Origin: Amylostereum areolatum
Lineage: Eukaryota; Basidiomycota; Agaricomycetes; Russulales; Stereaceae
NCBI GenBank assembly: GCA_012932865.1
Contig: SAXG01000142.1
Coordinates: 1-55,378, forward strand
DNA: 55,378 bases
Direction: 5' to 3'
Below are positions 35,340 through 55,378 of this stretch, piece by piece (within the stretch, counting starts at the first letter, position 1; each line of letters starts with the position of its first letter). The translations under genes were made by a program, and so were the position numbers. The notes under the pieces were generated by a model. The model was not told the origin of the DNA. It was given only the letters and a program-made list of their open reading frames with translations, and searched no databases.

Positions 35340-37774
35340 TCAAGTACGGCAAATCTCGATATAACGTTCGGACCAGAGGGGTGCTCCTACGTTTGTCTGG
35401 GGAACGTCAGGACGGGTAGCAAACTCGAGGCGTGAGTCCACGTACGCGCAGGTACCATGTTTCTGCATCGGGAAAAACTGGGAGGGCACTCGGAGGTGCA
35501 CCCAGGGGGGCATAGTATCGCTAAACGTGCGTGAGTAGCTGAGATCATTACAGCCGACAGTCGCGAATCGGAGACAGACGTGAGGGGAGATCGTGTGGTT
35601 TTCCTTGAGTTTCAAGCCCATATTCTCGAGCACCGGCTGAATGCGCAGACTTGACAGGAAAGCCGCGAACGCGGGAGAATTGTCGAAGAGAGCGGTGAAT
35701 GTGTGGTGGGATGCGGTGACCAGAGCTACATAGTACAGCGCACGCCGAAGGATCAGGCTCGCACGCCGGTGAAGAAACCAAATGCCAGATAAGTACCGAA
35801 TGCCGCGTCTTGTCCGAGTTTTTGGGCCACCTTTTTCAGAGGCAGCTGGATGCCACAGCGGAGCTACCTCAGTCTGTGGAGAATAACGTTGGTAGAGCGC
35901 ACGCACCTTTCCCTCGGCTTCCATCCTATCTAGCATCTTCCCCAAAACGTCCCCTCCAAGCCCGGGCCGTGCGCCGTCGTTTTCTGCGGCCCAGTTCATG
36001 AAGTAGGCGACCATCGTTGCGTGCGGGGACTTGCTTAACAGTCCACCCCACGTCTTCAATACCTTTTCCAGCCCAACGTACTGGGCATCGACGACGTTGG
36101 AGGCGTCGATCCGGTCAAAACGCATGGACGCCGGTACACCGAATTTCGAGAGCGATCCCGAGCGAATTGAGCTAGAAAGTGCAACGGTGTCCATACCGAA
36201 CAGTTTGAATTTGATGTGGAAGCGGGAGAGGCGCGCATGGAACTCGCGTAGTTGGTCCGATAGGTAGAAGTAGAGGCAGCCGTAAAGATCGGCGCGCGGG
36301 ACCCCATGAAGTCTTCCTGCTTCGACGACCGCGACAGGGCTGAAGAGTACATTCGCCACGAAACAGTTAGAGAGGGGGCATGAAGGTGAGAAGGGTACTG
36401 GGTACTACATACTCCCATGAATCCAGTGGGTTATCCAGGTCACTCTGTACGATACGCCCTTCGGGAGAGAACAAAGAGCGATTCGGAGAGTTGAACCAAT
36501 TGTTCGGTGCGCCGAACGGAAGAACCAGGCCAAATCTGCGAAATTCGAGGTGCGAAAGGCGATGCGAGGGTTCGAGACGGCAATATAGTCGATGGTGGCG
36601 ATCGGCGCGAGATTCTGCAAAGCTGAGAGGTGTCAGATAGAGCATGGATATTCCAGAGACCGCACCGACCGAACGCGCCCAATTTCCTCGTTCGCGTCTT
36701 GCAGTGTGTACATCGAGGTTTGCGTAGCGACCAAAAGCCGCCATACCGCCGTGGAAACGACCCCGGATAGGGAAGAAGCCCCACCGCCGAGGGGGAAGTC
36801 GAAACCGTCCGAGTCGTGTCCTTGGACGAGAGCAGCAAACGAGGATCTTACCTGAAAATCGTATCCTTCCGGGATGAAACTGGAATACCAAAAATGAAGA
36901 GCAACGTCCGCTGCACGACGTTGGTCTGTGACCGAACCCAATAAGTGGAGTAGAGCGAAATTTCGTAAGACAACGTAAGGGTCGCGGTCGTTGAGGAGGA
37001 TCGTGAGCTCTCCGCGATAGTCTTCCGGAAGGGAGTTCACGGTTTTGACAACATTTCGCAAGTCACCCGAGGCTGTGAATGAGAGAACACGTCCATTAAA
37101 AGGCATGTTTCTGGTACTTTATAACGCACCGACGAATGCAACGGATAAGTTTGCACCAGACACGGCTTCGTTCTTGGAAAGGTTTATCACGTCTACTGCT
37201 GGAACGTTGCCCCATCTGTCCGAAGTTCGGCTACAATCAAGAAGAACGCGGAGAACGAAAACACGAAAAGCTCACAGCGACTTTCCCAAGCCAAGGGGAT
37301 GTATGCTTTTCGCCCAAGACCCAGTATTCGAAACGACAGAAAAAGAAGGCGGACGCCGCTCCTCGACCCACGCTGGTAGCCACGATTCGGAGCGGATGGG
37401 GTCTTTGCAATCTATGGCAATGATCGCTGTGAGTAGATACCGCCGGGCAGTGTGCATGCCATCGTCGCGCACCTCCTTTGTGCCCAGACGGCTGTAATTT
37501 CCAGTGGGCCACTTGACATTCCTGGATGAGTATATAGTCAATCTCGACGCTGTACGTCGACAGAAGGGAGCCGACGGACCTTTGAGCAGTACGCGACGAG
37601 GCGACATTTACTGCATACGGAGAGTCCCGAGGTGTTCGGACACGACCAAGCCTCCCCGGCGATGACGTAGGCGCATGGCAAAGTGTCGAGTACGTGGTTC
37701 TTAGTTTCTTGGCGCTTGCTTACAGAGTCCAGTGCGTTCTGATAGGCAGCGAAGAGCGTCTTTGTGATGTTGTG
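35340..37774 (-). pseudogene. MYND zinc-finger / DUF4470 paralogue, C-terminal portion (interrupted by transposon)
   Basis: On the minus strand the sequence reads from HNITKTLFAAYQNALDS (37774 down) through CSKCRLVAYCSK and ECQVAHWKLQPSGHK to CKDPIRSESWLPAWVEERR. DUF4470 follows (SGDLRNVVKTVNSLPEDYRG, near 37070), then LYGCLYFYLSDQLREFHARL (~36260) and WSERYIEICRT, with the stop at 35340. It aligns exon for exon with the intact gene at 17522-20182. The first ~70 residues are missing here; they lie 15.9 kb away at 53644-53853, beyond the inserted KDZ element. A frame open upstream to 37852 starts inside the transposon terminal repeat and is fortuitous. Unless the element excises, the gene should not make a normal product. 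Confidence 0.88.
37768..37774. repeat. Target-site duplication, left copy (TGTTGTG)
   Basis: TGTTGTG immediately precedes the left terminal repeat and recurs at 53637-53643 immediately after the right one. In the MYND gene this is the His-Asn codon region (CACAACA on the coding strand). Zisupton-type elements are described as making 8 bp duplications; the eighth base differs here. Confidence 0.85.
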
Positions 37775-37846
37775 GAGTAGCATCAGTTGACTAGTTGCAT
37801 CCGGCTGTGTAACTGGTTGCATCTGATCTGTCTCCCTCCCCAGGCA
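37775..37846 (+). repeat. KDZ element left terminal inverted repeat
   Basis: It contains GTTGCATCCGGCTGT, then GGTTGCATCTGATCTG and CTCCCTCCCCAGGCA. The octamer GTTGCATC occurs twice, a possible transposase-binding motif. It matches 53564-53636 in reverse complement with small differences only in the outer 25 bp and around the central GTAAC. Confidence 0.88.
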
Positions 37847-37953
37847 CATCAAACCCCTATTTCATTTCAGAGCTTCAAGCTTCAGTACTTATCATTTCAC
37901 ATTACGTTTCATTCAAGACCTGCACTACATATATCCCAAGTAAGTATAAGTCC

Positions 37954-38041
37954 AATTACTCCCCTTGTCCGTCGCCGCCCGTCGCGCGCCGCCCCCCAAT
38001 TACTCCCCTTGTCCGTCGCCGCCCATCGCGCGCCGCCCCTC
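37954..38041. repeat. Tandem 44 bp repeat, two copies
   Basis: Units 37954-37997 and 37998-38041 begin AATTACTCCCCTTGTCCGTC and are nearly identical. They lie in C-rich subterminal DNA of the KDZ element (37847-38379), where no gene is seen. Confidence 0.85.
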
Positions 38042-38379
38042 TCGACCCCGCCCCTCTCGACGCCCCTTCGTGCCCCTCCTCCTGCGCCGCCAGTCCCGCC
38101 CGCCTTCTCGCGCACCCCTCGTCGGCCCCCGCCGTCGCGCCGTTGCGTCTCGACCCCCGCTCGTCGCCCACGCCCCGTCGTCACGTGCTCGCACTCGTCG
38201 TGCGCCGTGCGCCCCCTCCTCCCGCGCCGTTGACGCCCCCACGTAGTACGCGGCCGCCACTGTCCCGCCGTGCGGCGCACGCCGGGACCATGACGGCCGC
38301 GTGAGGGGACCGGCGGCATCCACAAGCAAGTCAGATGGTCGTGCGCCGTGCGCCGGTAGGGTACATGTAACATACTATA

Positions 38380-40320
38380 TTACAAACGTCTATCGAACGG
38401 CGGCACTCCCGTCACATGCTCGTCGACCGCGAGTACGCCAAACCATCCATGCCCGCCGGGGATCGACGGCGCGAAAAACTCCATGGGCGCGAGATCCCGG
38501 TCAAAGTTGGAGCGGCATGGGCAGAGCGTCTCCATCTCTCGCAGTTCCTCGGCGACGATGGGGAGCCTCTGTCGCCACCATCGATCGCCCAGAGTATGCG
38601 CACGTACCATGCCTGGCTCGGCACTCTCACTTGGATACGTCCATAGCCCCTGCGCCTCAATTTCCTCTTGCGCGCCTCGAGGCCAAACCATATGGCCTAG
38701 CGTGCCGTCTCCGTCGCCCAGCAACTGGAAAGGCTCCCACAGCCAACGGTCGAACCCCCACGGGCGACGCGCGGGACCCTCGGGTTCCCGGTATTCGTCA
38801 TGATCGCGAGGTATCGGCGGGCCCGACAGGAGCTTCAACCCCGACACGAAGATGTGCGGCAGACACATGTCGTAGCCGCACTCAACAGCGTCCGACAACC
38901 CGTCTAACAAACGGTGCAGCAGGGAAGCGGTGTCATCGTCTTCGAACTGCAGGCGCTTCGCCGGGTGAACCAACTCGACGCGGGAGAGCCTCGGGACTTG
39001 CCCCAGCGAGAGGAGCGACGGCAGGCCCTCGGCCAAATCGTCGGCTGCGCGATGGGCAGCAATGAGGGTCACAGGTGAGAAGCGGGCGGCGTAGAGGCGC
39101 CCCACGCGCGTGCTGCTCGCGGACGTTGCCTGGACCACCAGCGTGTCGACTTGACGCATATGAGGAGGAGGGTTGGCGAGGAGGACGTCAAAAGGGGGAC
39201 TCGGGGGGGCGTCCCAGGTAGCATGGTGGGGAGGATGGACGGGCCCCCGTAGGGCGAGCTGTCGAGACCCCCAGCGTGCGTCTTGGTTCCCGACGTCGAC
39301 GTCGATGTGCACATGATGGGCGAGGCGGGCGGGGACGCGTATCGACGCGTGGTCGATATCGTGCGAGATGGCGACGGAGGGTATCGGGAGGGATGAGGGG
39401 AAGAGAAGGAGGAAGATGCCCTCCAAATGCATCATGTCACGGTGAGACCCGTCCACGGTCATTCGGTGCTGGCAGCTGGGGAGGACTTCGCAAACGAGGA
39501 GGGCGCGGTGGACGAGCGTTGTCTCGTCCGCAATTTCGAGGTGCTCCAAGCGAGGGAGGGCCACGCGCATGTCGGAAGGGGGGCACATGGCACCTCGTAC
39601 GAGCGGGAGGGCGTACGCCAACGTCAATTCGCGAAGCTGGGGGAGAGACGCGAGGGTGGCCACGAACTCGGAGGTGGTTGTCCATTGGCGAACACCGAGC
39701 AGATCCACGCGCGCCAGACCGGGGCTGAACCACGATGAAGTTGGAGACAATAAAATGCCTGAGAGTTTGAGGGATGCGAGCCCGGCAATGGCGTTGGGCA
39801 GCGGGTTGGGGAGGGTCGCATCGTGCTCCGTCCAGACATTCTGGCCCCACCTGTCTCGATCCACGGCAGGAAGAGCCCAGGGAACGCGCTGGTCGGACGT
39901 GAGAGTGATGCAGCGTAAACTGGATGTGCATGCGGCGACGAGGCGATCCGGGGGGCAGTCGCGGACAGACGCTACGATGGACCGGAACGGACATTGAAGA
40001 CCGAGGAGATGGACGATCCGGGCGTGCCAGCCAGCCGGAAAGACATCGCGGGCGACATCGCGCGGGGACTGCGGCACGCTCTGTAGGTCGGCAGGGTGGT
40101 TCCCTAGGCGTTCAACGAATAGGTCGAACCAAAATTGTGACGCGATCGGGATTATGGACCAGAGAGCGCGGTCTGCGATGGCACATGCACGCCACCGCCG
40201 ACAGACGTGCGTGGCCGAAATCCATGGCCCTGGATGGACGAGGATCCCCGTGCTGGTCGAGGTGTCGCGGAGATGGCGGAAGACCATTTGAAGCACTTCG
40301 GTGGGGAGGGCGTCAGACAT
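38380..40320 (-). CDS. F-box protein carried inside the KDZ element
   Basis: A single-exon frame of ~646 residues from ATG 40320 (MSDALPTEVLQMVFRHLRDT) to TAA at 38382-38380. The F-box is LPTEVLQMVFRHL followed by HVCRRWRACAIADRALWS and GPWISATH, the classic mushroom F-box layout with a CRRW turn. The rest has leucine-rich, repeat-like segments (LPQLRELTLAYALPLV, LPRLEHLEIADET) consistent with a substrate-binding solenoid. The frame is undisturbed, unlike other genes in the element, and the gene lies between the left terminal repeat and the transposase. It probably represents host cargo captured by the transposon. An upstream in-frame ATG exists at 40371 but adds a non-typical leader. Target unknown. 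Confidence 0.82.
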   Translation of the reverse strand: MSDALPTEVLQMVFRHLRDTSTSTGILVHPGPWISATHVCRRWRACAIADRALWSIIPIASQFWFDLFVERLGNHPADLQSVPQSPRDVARDVFPAGWHARIVHLLGLQCPFRSIVASVRDCPPDRLVAACTSSLRCITLTSDQRVPWALPAVDRDRWGQNVWTEHDATLPNPLPNAIAGLASLKLSGILLSPTSSWFSPGLARVDLLGVRQWTTTSEFVATLASLPQLRELTLAYALPLVRGAMCPPSDMRVALPRLEHLEIADETTLVHRALLVCEVLPSCQHRMTVDGSHRDMMHLEGIFLLLFPSSLPIPSVAISHDIDHASIRVPARLAHHVHIDVDVGNQDARWGSRQLALRGPVHPPHHATWDAPPSPPFDVLLANPPPHMRQVDTLVVQATSASSTRVGRLYAARFSPVTLIAAHRAADDLAEGLPSLLSLGQVPRLSRVELVHPAKRLQFEDDDTASLLHRLLDGLSDAVECGYDMCLPHIFVSGLKLLSGPPIPRDHDEYREPEGPARRPWGFDRWLWEPFQLLGDGDGTLGHMVWPRGAQEEIEAQGLWTYPSESAEPGMVRAHTLGDRWWRQRLPIVAEELREMETLCPCRSNFDRDLAPMEFFAPSIPGGHGWFGVLAVDEHVTGVPPFDRRL

Positions 40321-40581
40321 GTTGAGCTGGAGATCTGTTAGCGAGAAATGCAAGCGAATGGTGATCAACATACCCGGGCAATCGACGAATATGCCGGGAG
40401 GGGGTAGGTTACAGCGATTATCGTCGTTGCACTTGGTGGACGAAGGGCAGAAAATGTTGAGGGACGGCGATTGGACCGGCCTCCATGGTTGACACCAGAA
40501 GCCGGGCCCGGACGAGGAACCGATTGCGCGCTGAGCGATCTAATGAGACCAAGTCCCCCGGAGCCCTAGATCGGTCGGACA

Positions 40582-40860
40582 CCGTTAACGCGTCCACGCG
40601 AGGAATCCGTTAACGCGTCCGCCCAAGAAACCCGTTAACGCCTCTGCGCGAGGAATCCGTTAACGCGTCCGCCCAAGAAACCCGTTAACGCCTCTGCGCG
40701 AGGAATCCGTTAACGCGTCCGCCCAAGAAACCCGTTAACGCGTCCGCAAGAAGCCCGTTAACGCCTCTGCGCGAGAAGTCTGTTCACGCCGCGCAAGAAA
40801 TCCGTTAACGCGTTCCCCCAAGAAACCCGTTAATGCATTTGCGCGAGAAGTCTGTTCAAG
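40582..40860. repeat. Minisatellite of ~26-27 bp units containing GTTAAC
   Basis: About ten degenerate units follow the pattern CCGTTAACGC.TC.GC.C.AG.AA.C. Two unit types (ending GAGGAAT and AAGAAAC) alternate in the left half, so the higher-order period is ~53 bp. Each unit has the palindrome GTTAAC. Related CGTTAA words recur near 48955-48985. It lies between the F-box gene and the transposase, where clustered transposase- or host-factor-binding sites would be plausible. Confidence 0.85.
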
Positions 40861-41222
40861 CGGATAAGACAACAATCATCCAATATCCATAGGCCAGACC
40901 GCCGCGAGTTGACACTCACGTGAATCCGGTGTCTTCGAAAAGAGTCGTCCCTCATTGTCACCCCACCCTCCCACTGTGTACTTTTTGTTCCCCATAATAA
41001 TACATCCATTCTGTGAAGGCAATCCGTTGAGCGCGCTATGCCAAACCCCCCTGTATACAGAGCCCATGGCATACCTTTGCGTGGTTGAGTGTGCCGTGCT
41101 CGCCGCCATGGAGCAGGGGCCATGGTCCGGAGTCCAATCCAAACCGCGCGAAAGCCACACGCATCCATATGAATAATAATATTTCTAATGTCATACACCC
41201 AGCACCCACTCCCTGACCACCC

Positions 41223-44200
41223 TTACCAGTCCGACACATCAACCACGCCCGCGAAATCCTTTAAACACTCTTCCAGAAGACTCCGATAGTTATGACTTTG
41301 TCTAGCGCGGGCGTCAGCCGGGGCACAACCAGTGTGGTACTCAGAGCTTACTTTCGACGATACGCCGCCTCGCCGGCCCTGTTGGCCACTACAGATTCTT
41401 TCGCCAGGCCATACCATTGTTCTACCTTTGCGCGAAAGAAGCGCACGATACGGCGCATCTCCCGCTCTAGCAAGGCCTTTTCCTCGGTCCACCGGGCCTG
41501 CAGTGCCCGCGTCCGAAACCAGTGTACCTTCAGCACTAATAAAGAAGCCGGCATGAGCATGTAGGACTGAGTTTGGTCCACACAGCACGTACTTTCCCCG
41601 CAGTACTTCTTCACTTTGCCATCGTCTTGGTTATGAACAAAGGTGAAGTCGCTCCAGACCCAGGAAGGGCTGGTCTTCCCCTCCCCGAGCGTGTCCTTGT
41701 CTGATGCCACCGCGAATGCCACAACGTCCTCTCGCGCCAAGGGCCGATACTTCTGGTCTTCTGGCTTCATGCCGAGGCGCAGAAGAGCCAGCCTTGCGCG
41801 ACAATATCGGTCTGCAGCTAAGGCGACTGCCGCTCTCTTGCGTTCCTGCTTCGCAAACTCGCGCAAGTTCTTCTTGACACCGGAGACGTTGCGCGCTCCC
41901 CTGAGCAAGGCGTAAGATGTGATCAGTTGGACCCGAACGTCATCCAGAGCCTCATTGGCTTCACCCTCCCGCAGCATCCGTTCTGCGTCCACCGCGCCCT
42001 TCGCCGCCGCTGCTGCTTTGAGTTCCTCCCCCCAATGGCAAGGAAGCTCCACCGTCGCTTCCGCCACATCCTTCCACAGAGCGCCGCGTACCCCGTCATC
42101 CCGATTCGTACCGTCGTCCTCCTGCCTCCTCTTCCGCGTCTGGCCCGTTGCTTCCTTCCCGTCCCCGTATCCCTCCTCCAGCTTATCCTCCACCTCCTCG
42201 TAACCACCATCCGCCACATTTTCCACAGCCAACTCAGACGCCGCCACCTTCACGACGTCCAAGAATAAATGCCACATTTCCGTCCAGTCTTCGAATCGTC
42301 GCCACCAGTTCTTCTTTGCCTCCTTCGTCGCTTTTGTGTCGGCTTCAGGGTCGTTCTCGAGCTTCTTCAGCAGCTGTGCCCTGCGCAGAACACTTTGAGC
42401 CGTCGTAGTGTCGCCAAGGATGCCATGTACCTAGCCTCCTCCAAAGCGATCCCCTCTGATATCGTTCCTGCCAATCCCGCCGTCACATCCTTACGACTGG
42501 CCGACTCGCTCAACATTTCCAAGGCATCCTTTTGAGTGAACCCTGGCCATTGGTCAGTCCAATCGCCCCGGAAGCATGCGCCTCAGCTCACCTTTCGTCG
42601 CACTGGTGCTCGGCTCGTACGGATTGTTCAGCCCTTTGTGGTTCTTGAAGTCCGTAACCTTGCTGAGCCACTCCTTCTCCTCATCTCTCCATTTCACCAC
42701 CGTCTCAGCCTCCAACCCGCCCTCGACATCCGCCACCACCGCGTTCACGACGCCAATTTGTTCCACAGCCTCCTTGTGCTTCCTCACGCACGCCTTTCCT
42801 ACGAAACGTCAGTAAAAACTATATTGGACCATCACTTGCGATGCTCACCCACTCCCACCGTCCTACGCCAATTCATGTCACCATGGTGGTCGTTGATTCT
42901 GTCGTGGCGGTGACCCGAAGTCATCTCCCGCGTGCTAGCCCCGAGCGCGTTCAGCGTCGCCCAAATCCGCTCTTGCCCTTCCCCATCTGTGCGCCCCAAT
43001 CCAGGTAAGAAGTTGCAAGAGAAATTATACCTGCACCCCGGCTTGTGCCCCGGGAGGTGAAACTTCCCGATAACCTGGATAATCTTTGGCCAATCCAGAT
43101 TTGCCAGGGATTTGCACTCGGCGACCGCCTTTTTCAACTCGAGCATCCGCTTCTCGAAATTGATGCAGTATTGGCACCCGATGTCATATGCGAATATGTG
43201 CAGCGACAAGGTCATCCACGGCTGCAGCCCTGAGGCCAGCGCGAAGTCGACGTTAACGAACCTGCACGAGTCCATTCCATCAACGAAAATGTCCATACAT
43301 CGGAGTACGATAGTTACCTTTCTCCTTTCTGGAGATCCACGCCTCCTGCTGGTAGGACGAACATATGGCGTGCGCAGGACAAGCCCAGGGTCCCGGCGAC
43401 GCTCCCCCACCATACCCCATGCCCCATGGCGCGGAAATGTTGACAGCTTGAAGGCTGAACGCGTGCGTCAGCGTCGACCAATGCATCTGCAGCGACCAAC
43501 TCACCTCTGGCTCCATCGGGCCCAACGTCTTCTGATACTCCGTAAAGTCCTCCATGTTTGCAAAGTAGGCGCTGCCCTCCGTTAAAGCGACGTCGTTCGG
43601 GTCCAAGGGCTTGACCTTTTGATCTTGCTGGTAATTTCCATCCACAGTGTAAAACAACGCGTCCAAGTACCTGAAAGCGTTAAGTGTCAGCCAAGTGGCA
43701 TTTGCCCACACAGTAGGAGACCAATACCACTCCTCCTCGGGACGATCCATCCAATCCAGCTCCATGTTTAAGCCCGGCTGAGGACAAGCTGGGCACAGGA
43801 TTGCCAGCTTACCAGCCCCAAGGTGGGTCCCCGGCCTCGTTCCCGAACGCCTGACCATCGTCAGGTAAGAGTGTTCTCGGTTGCTAGTCAACCATTCCCG
43901 ATATCGATTCTAACACCAACGCGGTCAGTACCTAGATCGAGCCCTCGCCGATAGGTAACTCACCACCACTTTGGTGAACAAGACGCCCTCGCTCAACCGT
44001 TCCAGATACTTGACGTAGTCTTGGCAAGCAGTTTGAGACTGGCAGGACAGGAGGAGGAACTTATCGAGCAAGCGCGTGCAGAACGCCGTCTGAGGTTTCT
44101 CCCATGACCCGGGGAACAGACCGATCCTGAGCAATTGCAACGCCTCGGGCTCCTGGACGCCGGTCCCCTCCTGCGGGCAATAGCAATAGCTTATGTGTGC

Positions 44201-45158
44201 GGTCTGAAACCCCTCGTCAGTGCATATCGTCGTCTCCCTTGGCGGTCTCAAACTGAGCAAGCAACGCATCTGGTCGTGCCCAGTGTACACCACCATGTTC
44301 AGCTTGTCCAACTCCGTGCGCGTCCAAAATCCAGTATCTTTGTCCCACACCTCGATCCGATGAAATGGCATGTGACGGTGGTCATTCATCGTACACGTCC
44401 CACATGCAGGCTTGGAGAAAAAACACTCCACACATCGATAGAGGGGCATGGCCTCGGTACCCTCGCTCTTCTTGCAGATGGAGCACACGCTCAGCGTTGG
44501 CCCCGCCTCTCGCGCCAGCAATGTGTCATGCGCCGGGCCCGCTTGAGTGCTCAGGAATTGATTCATGCGCTTGGACGGAGCCTGCCAACCAACCTAAGCA
44601 TGTGCGCGCGTTCCACCATGGCCAAGCAAAACTCACTATTGTGTTGTTCACCTTTGCCCTCTTGGGTGCAGGCCCGTCCTTCCCCAACGCCTTATGCCGC
44701 GCCTGCGCCGCCGCGTCTTTCTCTGCTTCCGCTTCCGCCTTCGCCGCTTCTTTCGCTGCCGCCTTCGCCTCCCTCGCCGCAGCCGCCGCATCGTCCTTCG
44801 CGGAATGAGGACCCGTGAAAGGGTTTGTGGTCCATCCTCCGCGCACCGATCCACCACCCGCCTTGACCTTATGCGGCGTGCTCCCCCGGCCCTGACGCAG
44901 CCCCCCCGACATGGTCTGAACAGGGGCGTGTCCCTTGGGCGTGACGCAGCCCTCGAAGGACGGAGCTTTCAGAGGTTGAGTCGGCGTGATCCATATTCTC
45001 TCCGACCGAGAATAAGTCATCACAGGGGTCTGCGGGCCCCCCACCCTGGCCCGTCGAGGCGTCCCAGGCAGTCGCTGAGTGTTCAGCGCCACGGACCCGG
45101 CCGCAAAGACGCCGGGAGATCTTCCTGGCTTGACGGGAGACTTGTCGTTTGACGCCAT
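41223..45158 (-). CDS. KDZ transposase with CxC2-like cysteine cluster
   Basis: This enzyme would cut and move the element. The N-terminal exon (ATG 45158, MASNDKSPVKPGRSPGVF) includes an Ala/Lys/Glu-rich helix (AAREAKAAAKEAAKAEAEAE). After an intron comes MNQFLSTQAGPAHDTLL and the cysteine cluster CSICKK, YRCVECFFSKPACGTC, NDHRHMPFHRIE. The CPACPQPGLN segment precedes the catalytic part (~43800). The core is in IFVDGMDSCRFVNVD (~43290), FAYDIGCQYCINFEKRML (~43190), IGKFHLPGHKPGC and GRTDGEGQERIWATLNALG (~42950), matching the Asp/Asp/Glu blocks I know for KDZ. The C-terminal helical part has HWFRTRALQARWTEEKALLE (~41500) and ends VVDVSDW at 41223. Several introns. Frames look largely intact, so the enzyme may be functional. 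Confidence 0.87.
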
Positions 45159-46484
45159 GAGAGTCAGCGCATCTAGGCCCCACGGCGTTGATACTTAACG
45201 GCGACGGCACTTCGCAAGATCACCTCAACCTCATCATTTGAATTGCACATCCATAGCCAGGTCCACTTTCCAGACGCGCGTCTCGCGTTGCTAATGTCTC
45301 ACTATTTGACACTACTCCACGCACCCCCAACATAACCTCAAACGATCCCCCCTGACCCCGCCGCTTTCCGTCTAAAAGGTATTCGGTCAGCCCGCCCCAA
45401 ATTCCAGACCTCGATACTTAAGTACTTACCTCCCGATCCTCCAACGTAGCCCTCCACCTTCCTCACCTCCGCCCTACACGTTTTGCTAGCCTCCGTGAGC
45501 AATGAAAACGTGATGTCATTGCCTTTGCGCACTTTCCGATGAGATCCAAGTGCACTAAGGTAAATCTCCACGCACCAGATCGTCCGCCGATATTTGGCAT
45601 CCGCGCGTCCATGAGAGAAAGCCCATTGTTGGGCCCTGGAATCGGACGGTCGAGTCAGGACACCCGTGACAAAGACGGAGTGCGAACCCGACAAGCTTCT
45701 GCACAAAGGCAGAAGTCCACAATGCAAACGAGGCCGGGCCTTGGAGGATGGAGGACGGGCGGCACCGGGGAAAGGAAAGGACAGCCAGAGTAGTGCTGGT
45801 ATGAGGGACGGTCTTGGTCGTGGCGTCGCGACTTCCGGTTTGAAAGCGAACAAGCAGACCACGTGCTACTGCCGCATTTGGTCTTAGGTACTTGATCCGG
45901 GGTATACTTAAATGTATCTAAAAACCTAATTAATTCAAACGCAGACCACGTGCACTGTTTGAGCGCCAAAAGCTCTGACATAATTCCAACCCACGCGCGT
46001 CGCCTTGGGCGTCCCCTTTGGCAATTAAGCCCTTACCCACAGACGTCCACAGTCCCCCACGCGGTCCTACGCCATATCCCCCTCCCGCTCTCCTGCCCGG
46101 GACCTTTGTGCACCTTCTGCTCGCGCAGAAACTCAGACGCAATCTACTGCTTTTTAGCAGTGGCGCGTTCGTGTGGTGGCACATCCTCGACCTGGACACT
46201 CCTGCCGCCTTTTCCAGGCCTCCCCCGGGCCCTTCTTGTGCGTATATCACACTCTCCCCCCCGACCCCCGACCCCCGACCCCTCGCCCCCTTCTGCTCGC
46301 GCAGAAAACGATCTCTTTCCTCCCGTACAGCTCCCCCGCTCTCCGGCCTGCCTCCTCCCGTCCTTCTCACCAAATATCAGATCACCTTCACGGATTCTGT
46401 GCGTATATCCATACCCATATGATCTCCGGCCAACCTCGCTCATTGTCCGACTCGTACCACGCTCCCAGCCCTCAACATCGATAC
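45159..46484. other. Divergent non-coding region inside the KDZ element
   Basis: It separates the transposase (minus) from the plus-strand cargo. A CTTCTGCTCGCGCAGAAA hairpin-like word occurs twice (46118 and 46291 areas), as do GCGTATAT words. Long open frames are proline-rich and unrecognised. It probably holds promoters for both directions. Confidence 0.4.
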
Positions 46485-47722
46485 CATGTCCTCGCACTCT
46501 GCAGCCACGTCGACCACAAATCCCCAGCCAGCATTCGGCAGCACCTCTGACCCGTCCATGTATGTCTTTTTGCTCGCTCGATGTCACCGTCGCTGAAGCC
46601 CTCCTCAGTGAGGCCCAGTCCCTGAACCTCCCCCCGCCCGAGCCCCTGAACCTCGCCGACCTCACCGTTTTGCAATCCGAGTCGTTCCCCAAGTTCGATC
46701 CCGCGAAGGTTCGCTTCCGAGCGACCGATTGCTTCGTGATCGGCGAGGCGCCCCACTCCCGCGGTCTGTTTCTACATCACCTCGCCCAACGCGTTCTGGC
46801 TCCCCGAGCTGCCGTGGCATGCCCCCGGGGACATCTTCACATACTTCAGCGATGGCATGCTTGGCGTTCACGAGTACACCAAATGGCCCCAGATATGGGA
46901 TATCAAAGAGCCCCACTTGGTTGTCGCACCTTTGCATCCTGCAGTGCGCCGTGGCATTCCCCACCAGGCTCACCCCCGCGCGCCCCTTCCCCTCACCCCC
47001 ACCCCCCACCCCCACTTATCGCAAGCCCTTCGCCTCCTACATCCATCTCGAGGAAGACGTCGACTTCTTGTTCTGCGATTTCATGCCTCGATGGTGGGCA
47101 AAGGTCCTAGACAACCGCCGCCGGACCTCTCGGCCGCGTCGACAAGGCGCTCTCAACACAAATCGACTCCATGGTCTCCGACAAGTCATTGTGGGCGCTT
47201 CAGTATGCGCAGGCCCTCTATCCACAATCGGACGACCCCTCTCGCCGCTATGTTTATCAACAAATCGTTCGCGTGAGTCGCGCGGTGAACAAGCTATTGG
47301 ACGGCTTGCTCTCACTCGTCGATGCCATCATGTGGTTCCGGGAGATCCAGCGCCTCCTCATCGACATCGTAGCATGGGCGGATTACCAACGCTACCTGAA
47401 GCCCGTGTGGGAGCACGACAGCATGCACGAGCCCTCCCTGCCCTGCTATCCCACGTATTCCCTCCGCGGCGCCATCTTTGAGGCGGATGTCATGCACGAT
47501 CGTGCCGCCTTTTGGCGGCGCCGTGCGCGGGGCAGTCGCTTGCGTCAGCGTGGGTCTGCCCGTTCATCCCACCAAACCTGTTTCGCACATTCTGGTCCCC
47601 GGCCTCGTGGTGCGTCTTCGGTCTGTAACTCGGGTTGCTTCAGGGCGTGGGCGAGGGGCCTCGGCGCTATGCTGATGTCTTTGGCATATCGTTCTCAAAT
47701 CGCCGATGGCGCTGATTGGTGA
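46485..47722 (+). CDS. KDZ-element cargo protein A, unknown, frame-broken
   Basis: The start MSSHSAATSTTNPQPAFGST (ATG 46485) leads to a likely intron (GTATGT near 46561 to CTCAG near 46607). Protein-like blocks follow in different frames: FPKFDPAKVRFRATDCFVIG, then FYITSPNAFWLPELPWHAPG with FTYFSDGMLGVHEYTKWPQI. Next are YIHLEEDVDFLFCDFMPRWW and GRVDKALSTQIDS, followed by LWALQYAQALYPQSDDPSRR and IMWFREIQRLLIDIVAWADY. At least two joins need a single-base change (near 46765 and 47112). I know of no function. Its C-terminal region is helical with Trp/Tyr-rich patches. The end is uncertain because the last ~60 residues differ between frames. Transposon-associated by location. Confidence 0.5.
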
Positions 47723-47804
47723 CTTCACCGTGAAGAGGTGTATATAATCTACCTTACCCCGTCGCCCCTCCGCCCACGCTCCAACTTCTGCCTCTTCCCT
47801 CACC

Positions 47805-48696
47805 ATGGCCTTCCCCAACTCCTTGAAACACGCCCCCCTCCCAGATTGTTTGTGCCCGCCCAAGGCAGGAGTACAACCCAAAGTCGAAGTGCGATTTGTG
47901 GAAAAAATGGGATGCGAGATGCTGGGGTGTAAGAAGTATAGGACGCAGGGGTGGATCGACTGCGGTGTATACGGTGCGCCGCCTCCTAACTCCTGGAGGG
48001 TCTGTGGTATTGACCTGTTCACAGTGCCGCAGGATACCTACGACGCCAGGTACGAGGCTTGCGGCGACAGGGTCGGAGTGCCGGATGATGTGATCCTCCA
48101 ATGGAACAAAGAGGACCTGAACCCGCGCTGGAACAGAGAACAGGTGAAAGCACAGGCTGCGCAGGGCCTTCCAGCCATTGACAAGCGCACTCGGGGGTTG
48201 CTCTACAAGTCCACGACCGCCCAAGGGAAGCGCCCGATCGGAGAAGTGGAGGACGGTGCGACCCAGCCGGCCAGAGTAACCCCTTTCTCCTCTCCGACGC
48301 GCGCGCCCGAGGCCGCCTCATCCCACCACCCACCGCTCGGCCCTTTCGCGACAGCTTCTTCACCCCAGGCTTCACCATCTGGCGCCAATAAGCGCCAGGC
48401 TGCGCTCCAAATGCTGGAAGAAGCAGACGTCGAAGAAAGGTTTGGCGAAATCCAGACCGCGAGGCTCAACAAGGTTGTTCGGGAGCAAGGTGTCACGATC
48501 CAGAAGCTCAAGGTGGACCTCGACGTCCAGCGCAAGGCTGTGAAGGGGCGCGACGATCGCATCATCAAGAAGAGCGAGGGAAAACAGCGAGCTGTCGAAG
48601 AAGGTGCGGGAGCTGCAGGCGCGCGTCGAGGACTTGGAGGAGAAGTTGAGGGACGCAGAGATGTACGTGGGCACGCTCCCAGAGGCCGACGCTTGA
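47805..48696 (+). CDS. KDZ-element cargo protein with C-terminal coiled coil
   Basis: ATG 47805 gives MAFPNSLKHAPLPDCLCPPK. The N-terminal domain has Cys pairs (CLC, MGCEMLGCKKYR, IDCGVY) that might bind a metal, and is followed by a Pro/Ser-rich linker. A long charged coiled coil runs from ALQMLEEADVEERFGEIQTA to VREQGVTIQKLKVDLDVQRK. Near 48590 the frame slips by one base at an A run. With one A restored, it continues ENSELSKKVRELQARVEDLE and stops at TGA 48694-48696; as written it ends at 48704 with an Arg-rich tail. Neither function nor family is recognised. It follows cargo protein A by about 80 bp in the same direction. Confidence 0.55.
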
Positions 48697-48736
48697 GGCC
48701 TTGAGGCATGGGGTGAAACATTGGCTGGTTACTTTT

Positions 48737-48828
48737 ACGCTTCAGGTCGTTGCAGGCAGTGTGCGCGTGGTCGAAGGCCCTCTCGGGGTGTTGGCGCGGG
48801 GGCGGGGTGGCGGTCGCGATTGGGAGCG
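48737..48828 (+). repeat. Internal palindrome, left arm
   Basis: A ~92 bp segment starting ACGCTTCAGGTCGTTGCAGG is repeated in reverse complement at 49042-49135 with about 95% identity. The 213 bp between the arms holds no gene. Such an inverted repeat could be a nested non-autonomous element or an inactive old terminus. Confidence 0.85.
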
Positions 48829-49041
48829 GGTTGATATATGCGTACTTACATCACGGAGTGCAAGCATGAGTTGTTTTTTCCATGGCATGCGTGAGGACTG
48901 GTGCAAGTTGAATTAAATTGAACGCGTGAACGGACCTGGCGGCGCGACACGACACGTTAATGGATCTGGCACGCAGGCGCGTTAACGGGTCAGGGGCGTG
49001 AGAACGAATCGGCTCAGTACTGCGGGGCTGTTTAAAAAGGG

Positions 49042-49135
49042 ACGCTCCCAATCGCGACCGCCACCCTGCCCCCGCGCCAACACCCCGAGAGGGTCTTCGA
49101 CCACGCGCACACTGCCTGCAAACGACCTGAAGCGT
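49042..49135 (-). repeat. Internal palindrome, right arm
   Basis: This is the reverse complement of 48737-48828, differing by one inserted T and two or three substitutions. The surroundings (48900-49040) contain GTTAA-type words similar to the minisatellite at 40582. Confidence 0.85.
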
Positions 49136-49655
49136 ACGGTGACCCATGGGTGAGTCCTCGCCTGGTTTATTTTATTTTCCACTGCACCAGCCGCCCAAGT
49201 GGGAGCATGGGGGCTGCGTGAGCCGCGACTACGGCACGTACATTTTTTTCTCTTTCACATCCCCACATCGTCCACCGTGTCACTTTGCGCGGTGGGTTCT
49301 GAATATAAGCATGGGAGCCGCGTGATTATACCGGCACCCTGCGACGAGGACGAACCCTCGCCAGAACCACATTTCTTGTTGCGCAGACCCTTTGTTGTGT
49401 TATCATTGGCAGCGTCTGGCGCGACGCGTCCCATCACGTGCCTTCTTATCAGTGCACGTGCGTGTTGGTCAGCCCGCAGAGGTGCCAGGTGGACGACTCC
49501 TCTTCTTGCTTCCCGCCCCAACCACCCCAACCCCCGTGGACACCTTGTCCTCCCACCGCAGCGGTCCGCCCTTTGAGGCGGACCTACGCATGCTTGTGCC
49601 GCCTTTTGGCGGTCTCATGTGCAGGCCAGTGCGATCCCCCACCCCCGCCCCTTCT
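49136..49655. other. Non-coding stretch inside the KDZ element
   Basis: No gene is recognised. The words TTTGAGGCGGA and GTGCCGCCTTTTGGCGG near 49574-49611 also occur with the same spacing in cargo protein A near 47480-47521. This suggests a duplicated fragment of that gene. Confidence 0.4.
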
Positions 49656-50900
49656 CCCCCTTCTCCCCCCACATTCTCGGATGCCTTACATAATTATTTG
49701 CTCTATCGGCTTGGGCGTCATCTGGAGGCCGATGGCGACGTGCTGACCTTTGCGCAAGAAATCATACAGAGGCACTCTTTACTGGGGGGACGTGATGAAG
49801 ACCCATCCGACTTCTCTTCCCGGTGTGAGGTGGTCTGGGCGGGGCCGATGGGCGCGTGCCCCCTGGACGCGGTCCCCAGCAGGGTTTGAAAAGCCTTGGG
49901 AGCAATGTTTCGTTTGCAGACCAGCCGCCGCCCTTGGTGAGAATTGCTTCTCCCTCTACTTCTCCTGCCGACTGACCGCCCCGAAGCGACGGCCCGCCGC
50001 GACCTCCCCGCGAAGTTCGACGGGGTGCCGCCACAAGGCCATCGTATCTGGGCAAGCGTTTGTCAGCTGGCCGCGCTCGACTACGCCGCGCGTGACATGT
50101 CAAACCTGGCGCTGGTTTGTCGTCATTTCTGGGAGGTCTGCAAGCGACCTCCTGCGGTTTTCTGGGCGGAGGACACGGAGAAGCTCGGGAGTTTTTTTGA
50201 CGACGTTGTGGGCTATTATGCCGCCATGGAAGGGCTCGCGCCGACTCGCACGGCAAGCTTCCTGGGCGTGGAGGAGCTGGCAGTCTCGCTTCCATGGGGG
50301 GGGGTGGCCGCGAGGGGTTCGCGAGGCGGCGGCGCGGGCGATTCCTCTCGTCGGAGGGCTGGGTCGAGTTTGTTTGGCGTGGGAATGCGCTGGAGGAGGG
50401 GGAGGCGGAGGCGCTGGCTGCTGTCGCCAGGTGCTGGCCTGAGGAGGGTGGCGGTGCGACGGCTCTGGAGCTATGGAGCGGGGCGCCGCGCCGTGCGAGA
50501 ATGGCTGGCGCAAGGCGGGGCGCCTTGGGACGACGAGCGGTTTATGGAGGTTGCCTGCCGGTTTGGAAGGGTGGAGGAGCTATGCATTGTCACAGCGGGG
50601 CATGGGTTGGGGTGATGGCGTCGCTGGTGGCGGGTTTGAGCCTCGGCGGGCGTTGCACATGCTGCGTCGCCTGCGCGAGTGCCTGCCGGGCTTGGAGAAG
50701 GTTCGACTCGTGCTCGGCGCCCACTTCGACAAGATGTCTCCGCCCTGCATGGGCGTGTGGGCGGGCGCAGAGGCTGACGTAGTTTGGGCGGCTGGAGGCG
50801 GGCGCGTGGCAAGTGTATACATCCTCGTTTTCTCAAATTTGATGCATACTGTCTCCTCATGCCACGGCCTGCGGCACGCAGGGAGACGGGAGGCGGGGCT
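49656..50900 (+). pseudogene. KDZ-element cargo B, F-box-like protein, frame-broken
   Basis: Protein-like blocks succeed each other on the plus strand in changing frames. They are PPTFSDALHNYLLYRLGRHL (49670 area) with FAQEIIQRHSLLGGRDEDPS, then LPAKFDGVPPQGHRIWASVC followed by MSNLALVCRHFWEVCKRPPA (50010-50160). FFDDVVGYYAAMEGLAP comes next, then later WDDERFMEVACRFGRVEELC and LRRLRECLPGLEKVRLVL (50660-50720). The LALVCRHFWEV block is typical of an F-box or of the hinge after it, and the last blocks resemble leucine-rich scoring repeats. No single frame or clear splice pattern connects them. It is either a decayed gene or one affected by sequence errors. Confidence 0.4.
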
Positions 50901-50999
50901 TTTATGAGAGAGCACGAAGGGGTGCGCGGCCTGCAACGCAACGCACCCCAAACTCACCCCACACGCCAGTGAACAATTCAATTCGACCCTTCGACCCCG

Positions 51000-52350
51000 G
51001 CCTCCCTCCCCGGCCTTCAAACACAATTTTCCTCTCCGGCCTTCAAACCCGCCCGGAAGGTGGCGGCAAAGACCGTCGGACCCTTACAACGACGGCCTTC
51101 ACTGCCCGGGCGAAGGGGGGACGGCGGGTGGGTGGCGGGGACGGCGACGGCGGCGTCCGTGGGGGTGGTCGAGGGTGAAACGGCCGAGGCGCCGTCGTCG
51201 ACGGGCAGCTGCACGGCGCTGGTAGGGGTGGGGCACGCAGAGCGTGCTCTAAACAAGGTGAGATACTTACAATTGTATTAGCAACCAGCACTCACCCGAG
51301 GGCAGACGCGGAGGGCGAGAAGCGAGAGGTAGGTGGGTCGTGGGGAGGCAGCGTGGGAGCAGGGCCATGAGGTCGGACGTGGAGGGCTGAGGTGGAAGGT
51401 AGAGGTGGAGGGCGGAGGTGTCGAGGTGGTAGAGGAGGGTGAAGGACTGAAGGGACGCGCTGGGTGGAGCGGACGCGGCGGGACAGTTCGACGCGGGATC
51501 AACGCAGGATCGACGCGGGATCAATGCAGGATCGACTGGGGAATCAACGCAGGATCGACGCGGGATCCGACGCAGGACCCCACCCGTTTCCGCCGGTTCC
51601 TCGCCCGTCCTTTCCATAGCGCGGGTTGTCCGCTCCCACCTCCGACGAACTCCTGCTGGGAGCACGGTTGCCCCTGGCTTCATGCCCAGCCGCAGTGCTC
51701 GCGCGTTGCGCGGGGATCAAGGGCGGGGCGTGCACGCGCGGGTCTAACATTCAAATTCATTCATATTGGTCAGGCTATATACAGCAAGCATCAAGACAAA
51801 AAATGACAAGAAATTTCAAGCAAAGAACCCAAGAATAGCCTCGACTTCAGCCCCCCCCTCTCCGACCTTCAAACCTGCGCCCTCTCCGACCTTCAAACCT
51901 GCGCGCGAAGGTGCCGGTAGAGACGGCGAACGCAACGAACGACGGCCTTCATCGGCCGGGGCCGGGGGTGGTGGTGGTGGTGGTGTAGTGGTGGTGGTGG
52001 TGGTGGTGGTGGTGGTGGTGGTGGGCCGATGGCCGAGCCAACCGTCGTCGACAGGCGGCTGAACGGTCAGAGTGGGTACTAAAAAGGTGAGAAACTCACC
52101 TTCGCTTTTGCGACTCGGAACTCACCTGGGCGGGGAATACACAGGTGGAGAGGGCATGCGAACGCCCGCGGTTTTGACGAAAGGACGAAACTTGAATGGA
52201 GGGAGGGAGTGGGTCGTAGAGGAAGAGCGGGAGTGGGGCCATGTGGGCAGAGGTGGTGGGCGGAGGTAAAGGGTGGTGGAGGCCGAAGGAGGACGCGGCG
52301 GGACGTCGAGAGGACGCGGTGGGACGGAGTAGGACGCGGAGGAACGTCAC
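51000..52350. repeat. Diverged direct duplication of ~450 bp
   Basis: Segments ~51000-51450 and ~51850-52300 share, in the same order, paired CTTCAAACC words, ACGACGGCCTTCA, GTCGTCGAC, an AAGGTGAGA block, ACTCACC, and a GGTGGGTCGT/AGTGGGTCGT block. Between them lies a set of GACGCGGGATCAACGCAGGATC-type repeats (51488-51575). No coding sequence was recognised; GC-rich open frames here are artefacts of composition. Confidence 0.6.
51968..52022. repeat. GGT/GTG microsatellite
   Basis: About 18 GGT triplets with one interruption (GTAGTGG). Confidence 0.9.
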
Positions 52351-52715
52351 GTCGAAGTGGTGGAGGTCGAAGGAGGACGCGGAGGTCGACGGAGGACGCG
52401 GAGGGACCGGATCGAAGGAGGACGCGGAGGTCGAAGGAGGACGCGGAGGTCGAAGGAGGACGCGGCGGGACGTCGAGGGGGTGGAAGTCGAGGTGGTGGA
52501 GGACGAAGGAGGACGCGGGGGAAGGATGAGGACGCGGGGGACGTCGAGAGGACGGGCGGGGACGTCGAGGGACGCGGCGGGGACGTCGAGAGGACGCGGC
52601 GGGGACGTCGAGAGGACGCGGCGGGACGTCGAGAGGACGCGCGGGGACGTCGAGAGGACGCGGCGGGGACGACAAGGAGCGGCGGGGACGACGCGGCGGG
52701 ACGTCGAGAGGCGTG
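52275..52715. repeat. GACGCGG minisatellite
   Basis: Two related arrays: ~18 bp units around GTCGAAGGAGGACGCGGA (52365-52480) and ~20 bp units around GGACGTCGAGAGGACGCGG (52530-52710). Purine-rich on the plus strand. Translation of any frame gives repetitive Arg/Asp/Gly or Pro/Ser/Arg sequence, which I regard as non-coding. Confidence 0.85.
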
Positions 52716-53563
52716 TGCACGCACCATCTAAGGTGGCTGCCGGGCGGACTCATGGGTTTAACGAACACGTTTGCCCCAGTGTGTCTGTGTTCGGGGGCAG
52801 GGGGGCGACGCACCCTTCCAAACAATACACCGACCACCCCTCCTGAATGGGTTATCGGGACCGCATCGCCCCGCCTTTCCTGCGGACGTCAGTACTGATC
52901 TAACGCGGCCCTGTGCATCACGTCGTGCGACGCACGCGCGGATGCAGGGGGTCGCGTACCACAACAGGGGCGGGACTAATGGGAGACGTCGGGTGGCGGC
53001 GGGATGGTGGGGGGCGGCCGTGCACGCGTGCGACGGTGAACGTGAATTCACCAACCGCGCAGGCGTGGATGGCGGGGCCGTGGAAACGGTGGCTGGGGAG
53101 AAGGCAGACCAATGATGCACCAATGCCGAAATGGCGCCTTTGAATGCCAGAGAAGGGGTTAGCGGATGGAGAGAGGAGACGTGTGGGGCGCTCACCCGGG
53201 AGCCAAGTGGAATCTCCAACCCAAACGCATCCTTCGCACAGCTTGAGGAGGGTAGAGGGGGCGGCGCGGGCACCCTGACGTCGTCGTTGGACGGAGCGCT
53301 GCGGATTGAAACGTAGAGGTGGTGGAATGAGTGGCGAAAGGGGCGGATGAGAAAGGATCGGGGAGGGAGGACGTGAAGGAGGCGCGCGAGGAGCAGGCTG
53401 AGTGAGGTCGAGATGACCTTGGAACGAGAAGCGATGATGCGCCACTTAAATTCAAGGATATATGGTTAAGTGGTAATATGCTACATAGGTTCCAAAGGCT
53501 GGAGTTCAATCCCGCAGGAAGTCATTTATTTTGTAATCGAAATTGAAGCCGGGCACGGGACCT
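52716..53563. other. Subterminal region of the KDZ element, right side
   Basis: No gene is recognised. Near 53455-53520 there is a tRNA-like stretch (TGGTTAAGTGGTAATATGC as an A-box-like word and GAGTTCAATCCCG as a B-box-like word, ~35 bp apart). The acceptor and T stems do not pair properly, so it is not called a tRNA; it might be a SINE-type remnant. Confidence 0.4.
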
Positions 53564-53636
53564 TGCCTGGGGAGGGAGACAGATCAGATGCAACCGGTGT
53601 TAACAGCCGGATGCAACCAGTGAACTGAACATCTAC
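53564..53636 (-). repeat. KDZ element right terminal inverted repeat
   Basis: TGCCTGGGGAGGGAG at the inner side through CAGATGCAACCGG and GCCGGATGCAACCAG to CATCTAC at the outer end; reverse complement of 37775-37846. It ends at 53636, where the target duplication starts. Confidence 0.88.
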
Positions 53637-53643
53637 TGTTGTG
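53637..53643. repeat. Target-site duplication, right copy (TGTTGTG)
   Basis: Identical to 37768-37774. It marks the outer border of the KDZ insertion on the side of the MYND start codon. Confidence 0.85.
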
Positions 53644-53853
53644 TTGTCCGAGCGATTGATCGAAGCCCTCTCGCTCGTCAGGATGGCGTGGTTTGGGGGA
53701 CGGAGTTGGAGGGCCATGATCCCCTGGGCCGGGGAGAGTGTGAGCGCCGGCTAGTTCTTCGAGATAGTCGAGCGCGGCAGACGCCTTTTCGTCGTCCGTA
53801 GAAAGCGAGGAAAGTTTTTCGGAGAGATATTGGAGGCTGCCTTCATCCGACAT
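53644..53853 (-). pseudogene. MYND zinc-finger / DUF4470 paralogue, N-terminal portion
   Basis: From ATG 53853 the minus strand reads MSDEGSLQYLSEKLSSLSTD, AALDYLEELAGA, GDHGPPTPSP and EGFDQSLGQHN. These align with the first ~70 residues of the intact gene at 17522 (LSQKLSSLSTDDEK, ALDFLEQTAA, NYGPPVPSNP, LLEQHN). After QHN the frame enters the transposon terminal repeat and soon stops. The missing remainder is at 35340-37774. The region upstream of 53853 should still hold the native promoter, so a short truncated peptide could be made. Confidence 0.88.
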
Positions 53854-54526
53854 GACGGGAGTTTTGAGGGGACTATCAGAGTAGAAATGGGATGCGTGGA
53901 TTAAGTATTTCTTCAAGGAAGACATAAACTTAGCGCTTAGCCTCGAGGACGCCTCATGAATCAACGACATCGAGAAGACAGATGGGCAGATAGAAGAGGC
54001 CTGCTGCGCGTAAGTGTACCCAAACCTTGTACCGCTCACATCTGTAAAACCTCTCGTGCGAATTGGATCTTTTTGGAGGATATTGGACCTAAACGGCGAG
54101 TTAGAGGATTTGACGTGTTTAGGAAGGTCCTCTTACTACTAGATCTAATTTAGCGGCTAATGGTTTCTCAAGACGGTACAATCTCGGTCCAGCCGCACAC
54201 CAACAGTGGTCTCAAACTGATCTCAACAGCATCCAAGCATTTTCACAACATAGGTTTGGTTCACTTTTAGATACCGTTGTCCTGCCTTTGTCACGGCTTT
54301 TGGGGCTTGCTCAGACACCATTAGAGAAACCGGGTATCCATTTTTCATACATTAGCACGAGGCACGGATTGTAAACTAAGTGTTAATGAATGAGCGGAGG
54401 GGGGGGATGAAGCTACGGATGCGAGGGGAAATAGAGTAGGAGCGAGAACCATTGTACACGAACACATATTACGAGAATCGACTAAAGCGGAAGTGAACGT
54501 AAGCGTAGCGGGAGGGGGACACACAT
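53854..54526. other. Intergenic region
   Basis: Presumed promoter of the split MYND gene and the 3' flank of the DUF6532 gene. AT-richer than the surroundings; no gene seen. Confidence 0.5.
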
Positions 54527-55378
54527 CTACTCATCATTATAGTCAATCAATGCAGCAGGAACACCGGGGGCGGGCAGCACCGACAAAGGGCCTGTTCTAG
54601 ACAGATAAATGAGTGGAATGGATTGAAAAGCTAGGGAAACAACTTACAAAGCCGCCGTGTACAAACCGGACATGAAGCTGTGGTAGAACGGGAGGCGAGT
54701 GTTCTCCATCTCGTTCAAAGTGGCAATATGGCCACCGTACACATCCAGGTATGTCCCGCCGAGAAATCGGACTTGACATGATGCCCGGATCGACGCTCGT
54801 GCAGAGATGCGTAAACCTACACAAGGATAAGCAAAGGTTTATCATATTGAGATCAAAATGAGTCACTCACCGCTGTAAATGCCAGTGCAACCATTGCCTT
54901 CGGGAGCTCGATGCGACACTCGTTAGTTACCGAGTCAATTGTAAACGGGAGCCTATCGCGGAAGCCGTCCGGAATTCCCTTTGCGAAAATGGTCTGGTGA
55001 AGAATTGTGATCCCGATTGGGTGACGGTAAGGTTGACCACGGTGCACAGCCCCAGTCAACCCATCCTACAGTATGATACTATAAGTCAGTAGAAACCCAC
55101 AGAGACATGACCAGTGAAAACACACCGGAGAGTTGCGATGGAATATGTAGTTATAATCCCGGACAGCGAAAGCTACTGCCGCTTGACTCTGCTCCCCTTC
55201 AGGAAGCAGGTTGTACATTCCGACGATGTGATTGTCGCTGGATTCCTTGAACTTCAAGTGAAAGATACCAATGCGAGCGATGGGCTAGTACGAAATGGTC
55301 TGAGAACCGTGCTGCCAGGAAAAATCCAAACTGACTTACCAAGGGAATGAGACGGTTGATGTACCCGGGTTCCTGGAG
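54527..55378 (-). CDS. DUF6532-domain protein, 3' part (5' end beyond window)
   Basis: Reading leftward from the window edge, GMYNLLPEGEQSQAAVAFAV and VRDYNYIFHRNSP are followed by an intron and then GAVHRGQPYRHPIGITILHQ. TIFAKGIPDGFRDRLPFTID leads to ELPKAMVALAFTAV. After another intron come VYASLHERRSG, DFSAGTYLDVYGGHIATLNE and FYHSFMSGLYTAA. The last intron (GTAAGT near 54643 to CTAG near 54598) leads to GPLSVLPAPGVPAALIDYND and TAG at 54529-54527. The order (short helix, ELP..MVAL..TAV, Y..VY..H...L, F...L) is that of the mushroom DUF6532 domain, whose function is unknown and which often occurs in expanded families. Only the C-terminal ~200 residues are in the window. Confidence 0.8.

Follow-up and report, generated by a model that had tools for sequence, protein, structure and literature searches.

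A CxC2-type KDZ transposon interrupts a MYND/DUF4470 gene

The stretch analysed here, called the window, is a complete 55,378-bp contig (SAXG01000142.1, hereafter C48) of the Amylostereum areolatum assembly GCA_012932865.1, which comprises 57.1 Mb in 182 contigs. It carries a 15,862-bp CxC2-type KDZ transposon (37775..53636) between two copies of the heptamer TGTTGTG within the first exon of a MYND/DUF4470 gene, and the same locus is uninterrupted on another contig of this genome, C153. We hold this reading with high confidence, with cut-and-paste transposition and a 7-bp staggered cut as the likely mode of insertion. Coordinates refer to the window unless a contig is named, and strands are given for features that have one. 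The element is full length and has no large nested insert compared with the copy on contig C99 (15,823 bp).

The borders lie where a preliminary description of this DNA had placed them. The left terminal inverted repeat (TIR) occupies 37775..37846 (plus strand) and the right one 53564..53636 (minus strand), with 61 of 73 aligned columns identical. They are flanked by the left (37768..37774) and right (53637..53643) copies of the 7-bp target-site duplication TGTTGTG. The element starts with GAG and ends with TAC. A search of the whole genome with the terminal repeats, as had been proposed, recovered at least 13 left ends and at least 13 right ends, both numbers being lower bounds; with so many copies, the repeats are the ends of a family and not a chance similarity.

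The element lies inside exon 1 of the host gene. The N-terminal part of this exon (72 codons) is encoded at 53638..53853 and the remainder of the gene at 35340..37774, both on the minus strand; the latter follows a crude splice model with an uncertain 3′ end. The N-terminus had been described as 53853-53644 and as ending in QHN. This ending is correct, but the span is 53853-53638, since the duplication contains the codons for H and N. When the N-terminal part is read on into the element, a stop follows after 17 more codons (open reading frame (ORF) 53584-54132, minus strand). Joining the flanks with one copy of the duplication gives, under the crude splice model, an open frame reading QHN|ITKTLF. 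The corresponding residues are QHN|LTKALF in C153 and QHN|IVDAFL in the intact paralogue at 17522, so that the agreement with this paralogue expected earlier is seen in the shared QHN. In the spliced model zf-MYND scores above its cut-off across the join (2.5e-8). DUF4470, located at 36633-37118 on the minus strand, is also above its cut-off (2.8e-20). The unspliced ORF 37237-37719 gave no MYND match by itself because an intron splits the finger. Collinearity with C153 and the common join context support the reading of the two MYND parts as one gene. The host protein would be truncated after these 72 codons plus 17 from the element, ahead of the MYND finger, and the C48 allele is therefore predicted to be null; the C153 copy could supply the lost function.

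In the proposed course of events, the transposase would attach to the TIRs and make a 7-base staggered cut in the target; gap filling by host repair would then leave the 7-bp duplication. A single-exon F-box-like gene and a further gene, gene C, move along with the element. Insertion of a KDZ element into the MYND gene is in itself an ordinary event for a DNA transposon.

An uninterrupted copy of the locus is present on contig C153

The search for an empty site, set beforehand as a test, was run inside the assembly and revealed an uninterrupted site on C153. The match of this contig to the left flank has 93% identity and that to the right flank 95%. In C153 coordinates the left-flank match ends at 37956 and the right-flank match begins at 37961, the overlap being confined to the target site. 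An alignment of the joined flanks with C153 has no gap over the insertion site. Flank identity between the two contigs is 97.4% over 4,539 aligned columns. The interrupted gene and its paralogue are about 20 kb apart on C48, as are their counterparts on C153, which makes the two contigs collinear. We infer that C153 represents the other haplotype. The same joined-flank idea has been used to study insertion polymorphism between nuclei of Marasmius oreades (available part of PMC9674265). The preliminary description had also spoken of exact in-frame repair on removal of the element. The joined frame is indeed open, but with respect to excision itself the evidence consists of a computed join and of an allele that never carried, or no longer carries, the element.

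The MYND gene on C153 contains a 291-bp insert of its own (C153:38190-38480, opposite window position 37541/37542), which sits inside the predicted intron that splits the MYND finger; its ends, CATCAGG..CCTGATG, resemble the Plavaka-B termini given in the accessible text of PMC12730594. A second repeat in the window (54035-55378), whose start is some 180 bp upstream of the MYND start codon, reaches the contig end. It matches 26 further places in the genome at 86-99% and is missing from C153.

The transposase and its classification

The KDZ transposase gene (41348..44566, minus strand) was modelled with predicted exons at 44566-43964, 43909-43505, 43454-43318, 43261-42849, 42798-42592 and 42542-about 42430, followed by the ORF 42430-41348. 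The predicted exons have good splice sites and keep an open frame as far as about 42430, beyond which it shifts. Four other copies were compared at this place, none with an indel to account for the shift, and a missed intron or a family-wide frameshift is possible. Assignment of the inserted element to KDZ stands, as both diagnostic domains pass their cut-offs: the CxC2 cysteine cluster (PF18803, 1.7e-20) at 43988..44311 in ORF 43928-44593, and the KDZ transposase domain (PF18758, 112.8 bits against a cut-off of 26.6, positions 90-217 of 217) at 42871..43287, both on the minus strand. The predicted exons contain VDGNYQQ, YDIGCQ and DGEGQERIW, which may represent the catalytic positions (acidic triad). 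The most similar transposases come from Artomyces, Auriscalpium and Heterobasidion, the best with 46% identity over 97% of the query; they have the same CxC2 and KDZ domains and were compared at the protein level only.

With Kyakuja-1_LB and Kyakuja-2_LB of Laccaria bicolor the element shares the KDZ transposase, the host class Agaricomycetes and 7-bp duplications. As far as the available part of PMC12730594 describes them, those elements have 5′-CA..TG-3′ termini, have no TIRs and carry TET/JBP, whereas the element described here has GAG..TAC termini and TIRs, and no TET/JBP match. Zisupton and Dileera are given 8-bp target-site duplications in the same excerpt, in contrast to the 7 bp seen in five self-matching copies here; one flank pair across contigs shares 8 bases, which chance could produce. 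KDZ1 of Cryptococcus neoformans (about 11 kb, 241-bp TIRs, 8-bp duplications, CxC1), seen inserting into a gene (PMC12810828, sections available), is likewise a large KDZ element with TIRs, an N-terminal cysteine cluster and an insertion into a gene, but differs from the present one, which has CxC2, a 7-bp duplication and the shorter TIRs. By its predicted transposase the element is KDZ, with mixed end features.

Genome-wide, 27 TET/JBP matches were found, and no located copy of the family includes one. Several KDZ matches elsewhere, for example on C14, C164, C128 and C75, have a TET/JBP match 2-4 kb away.

Target sites of the family and reliability of the assembly

Eleven copies have both ends on one contig, and five of them (C48, C150, C76, C2:965k and C142b) are flanked by identical 7-mers. 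Clear borders thus appear normal for this family, and with 7-bp duplications also on record for Kyakuja (PMC12730594, part available) the earlier view that few KDZ elements have boundaries of this clarity is not supported. Other 7-mers pair across contigs (left-right): C127-C141, C141-C120, C120-C142a and C2:399k-C30. Joined flanks were used as queries in two batches, with 40 of 633 candidates scored in the first (C150, C2:965k, C127/C141, C120/C142a) and 40 of 75 in the second (C141/C120, C2:399k/C30, C76, C142b). Uninterrupted spanning matches were obtained for seven of these eight flank pairs, namely C150, C2:965k, C127/C141, C120/C142a, C141/C120, C2:399k/C30 and C76, the last covering 172 of 220 bases. 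Some spanning targets are themselves repeats, and therefore the sites that may be alleles are limited to C48, C150 and C127/C141.

Several observations weigh against a simple insertion as represented on C48. The outermost bases of the two terminal repeats match poorly, and the C153 site reads GGTTGTG and not TGTTGTG (6 of 7 bases shared). Six of the eleven two-ended copies lack matching 7-mers, and for the C142b flank pair no spanning site was present among the scored candidates. The right flank of C48 is also joined to different copies on C127 and C99. Moreover, C48 and C127 have a common end base and share 1,742 bases of identical sequence. The shared right flanks and the shared contig end indicate that the assembly around these repeats is partly chimeric or recombined, and the element body on C48 could mix two copies.

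Taken further, the C48 join would be an assembly chimera in which the MYND flanks are real and the sequence between them is stitched from at least two KDZ copies. This is in accordance with the same right flank standing behind different copies on two other contigs, and with the common end base of C48 and C127, which also have two missing bases in common relative to C99. It further agrees with the distribution of private indels of C48, which are confined to 46769-53563 (31 inserted and 28 missing bases) and absent from 38018-46768; the right third of the window looks like a poorly polished contig end. However, the same 7-mer stands on both C48 flanks and the flanks lie together on C153, which random stitching would not yield, and such a chimera would concern the element body and leave the insertion site untouched. 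We regard it as somewhat unlikely. The insertion of a KDZ element into the MYND gene remains our reading: the insertion site is solid, and the body of the C48 copy may be mixed.

The mismatched copies could alternatively reflect real crossing-over between KDZ copies on different chromosomes, that is, translocations. The four left/right 7-mer pairs across contigs would be expected from such exchanges, each pair being continuous in an uninterrupted relative. Yet the copies are about 99% alike over about 15 kb, a well-known source of misjoins; in addition, more than one separate exchange would have to be assumed together, indeed several, and contigs end with identical sequence. We consider translocation quite improbable.

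A giant Starship-like cargo carrier was considered for copies of 19-38 kb and rejected, as comparison of six copies resolved them into a core of about 15.8 kb plus nested inserts. The C150 copy (C150:198204-217468) has a 7.1-kb insert between direct repeats of about 420 bp and, at this insert, lacks 4.4 kb of core sequence, with transposase and gene C sequence among it.

The family carries an F-box-like gene

A single-exon F-box-like gene of 646 codons (38383..40320, minus strand) adjoins the left end of the element and is open in the C48 copy. Its product matches the F-box-like domain PF12937 at residues 3-55 (34.7 bits against a cut-off of 24.3, 1.5e-8); its match to PF00646 was below the cut-off. 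A tandem array with a 25/50-bp unit (CCGTTAACGC...) lies upstream of the gene at 40582..40847. The predicted structure of the protein has a mean pLDDT of 33.7, and comparison with solved structures by sequence gave no match. A second F-box, guessed by eye in an ORF near 50 kb, was dropped, having no Pfam match.

The nearest relatives outside the family are on C176, C94 and C41. The relative on C176 sits among other F-box matches, and for this reason the gene was likely captured from the host F-box family. A possible link between the C176 relative and a KDZ element was considered; among the KDZ matches listed for that contig, the nearest is about 30 kb away. According to PMC12062965 (in the portion available), F-box genes and transposons are recurrently associated, with an F-box isoform in fish Zisupton and F-box/CxC7 fusion genes in zebrafish, and its authors found no evidence for transposon capture of F-box domains. 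The element described here likewise combines an F-box with a KDZ transposon, but, unlike the fish fusion and isoform, as a separate single-exon gene beside the transposase and in a fungus. In the open-licence literature we found no description of a fungal KDZ element that contains an F-box gene.

Whether the gene serves the element was weighed from its distribution and its substitutions. It could be a chance passenger of a once-composite insertion with no role in the element. Of the 13 copies, six have it full length without a stop, two have one stop and five have it broken up, leaving seven in which it is not both full length and stop-free. Among copies, non-synonymous changes are depleted only mildly (60 against 66 synonymous, versus 1.55 to 1 expected for CpG changes; five non-independent comparisons with one common reference). 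On the other hand, each of the 13 left-ended copies found has a match to the gene by its left end, always in one place and open in six copies, and the transposase exons are as mildly depleted (22 non-synonymous and 30 synonymous, versus 1.44 to 1 expected). In comparison with the C176 relative, the two halves of the gene (277 and 406 codons) give dN/dS values of 0.20 and 0.17, with the caveat that dS, near 2, is saturated. Together, dN/dS and the between-copy counts suggest mild constraint, no more. A passenger is quite possible, if a little short of probable. The bolder proposal, that the KDZ lineage keeps a captured host F-box gene as a working module, a putative SCF ubiquitin-ligase adaptor that would mark a host silencing factor or the transposase for destruction, is speculative and we rate it as unlikely.

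Gene C, other internal sequence and neighbouring genes

Gene C (46562..47521, plus strand) is in pieces in C48 and forms one long open frame in the C99 copy; its frame breaks in C48 fall at single inserted bases absent from other copies. It was matched in 12 of the 13 left-ended copies, the exception being C150, where this stretch is lost. In the C141 copy, gene C (C141:73843-74736) is 71-73% identical to the others, yet the F-box-like gene is 99% identical; this copy is either a mosaic or a misjoin. A database search with a single gene C sequence gave no match, and a three-sequence profile gave one, in Bondarzewia mesenterica, among 7,997 scored candidates. A fold-back sequence with 79-bp arms (48750..49121) is present in all six copies compared. 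Outside the element, the window at 28-35 kb and 1.4-8.5 kb contains ordinary genes, with two alpha/beta-hydrolase, one SKN1/KRE6 and one SNF2 match.

Family copies decay at CpG sites

The family copies change mainly through C-to-T at CpG. C48 has 54 private substitutions; C-to-T or G-to-A accounts for 40, of which 36 fall at CpG (31% of C expected). The CpG share of such changes in the other five copies is 34/38, 21/23, 37/46, 49/58 and 42/50. Between alleles, the host flank has 64 transitions, 15 of them in CpG context; these are unpolarised, which makes the comparison rough. The observed/expected CpG ratio of the element is still 1.02, which indicates that the decay is young. The pattern fits a possible methylation of the copies.

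Implications

The clean insertion together with the empty allele provides a dated, testable KDZ event, though one expected of DNA transposons. For fungal assemblies, near-identical KDZ copies of about 15.8 kb can give false or real chromosome joins. The F-box-like gene, more than the insertion, is the part deserving follow-up: a KDZ family moving an F-box-like gene of its own offers a concrete candidate for the missing case of F-box capture. If the gene did act as a working module, it would counter host silencing by proteolysis, in a genome where other KDZ elements adjoin a methyl-cytosine-erasing TET/JBP gene.

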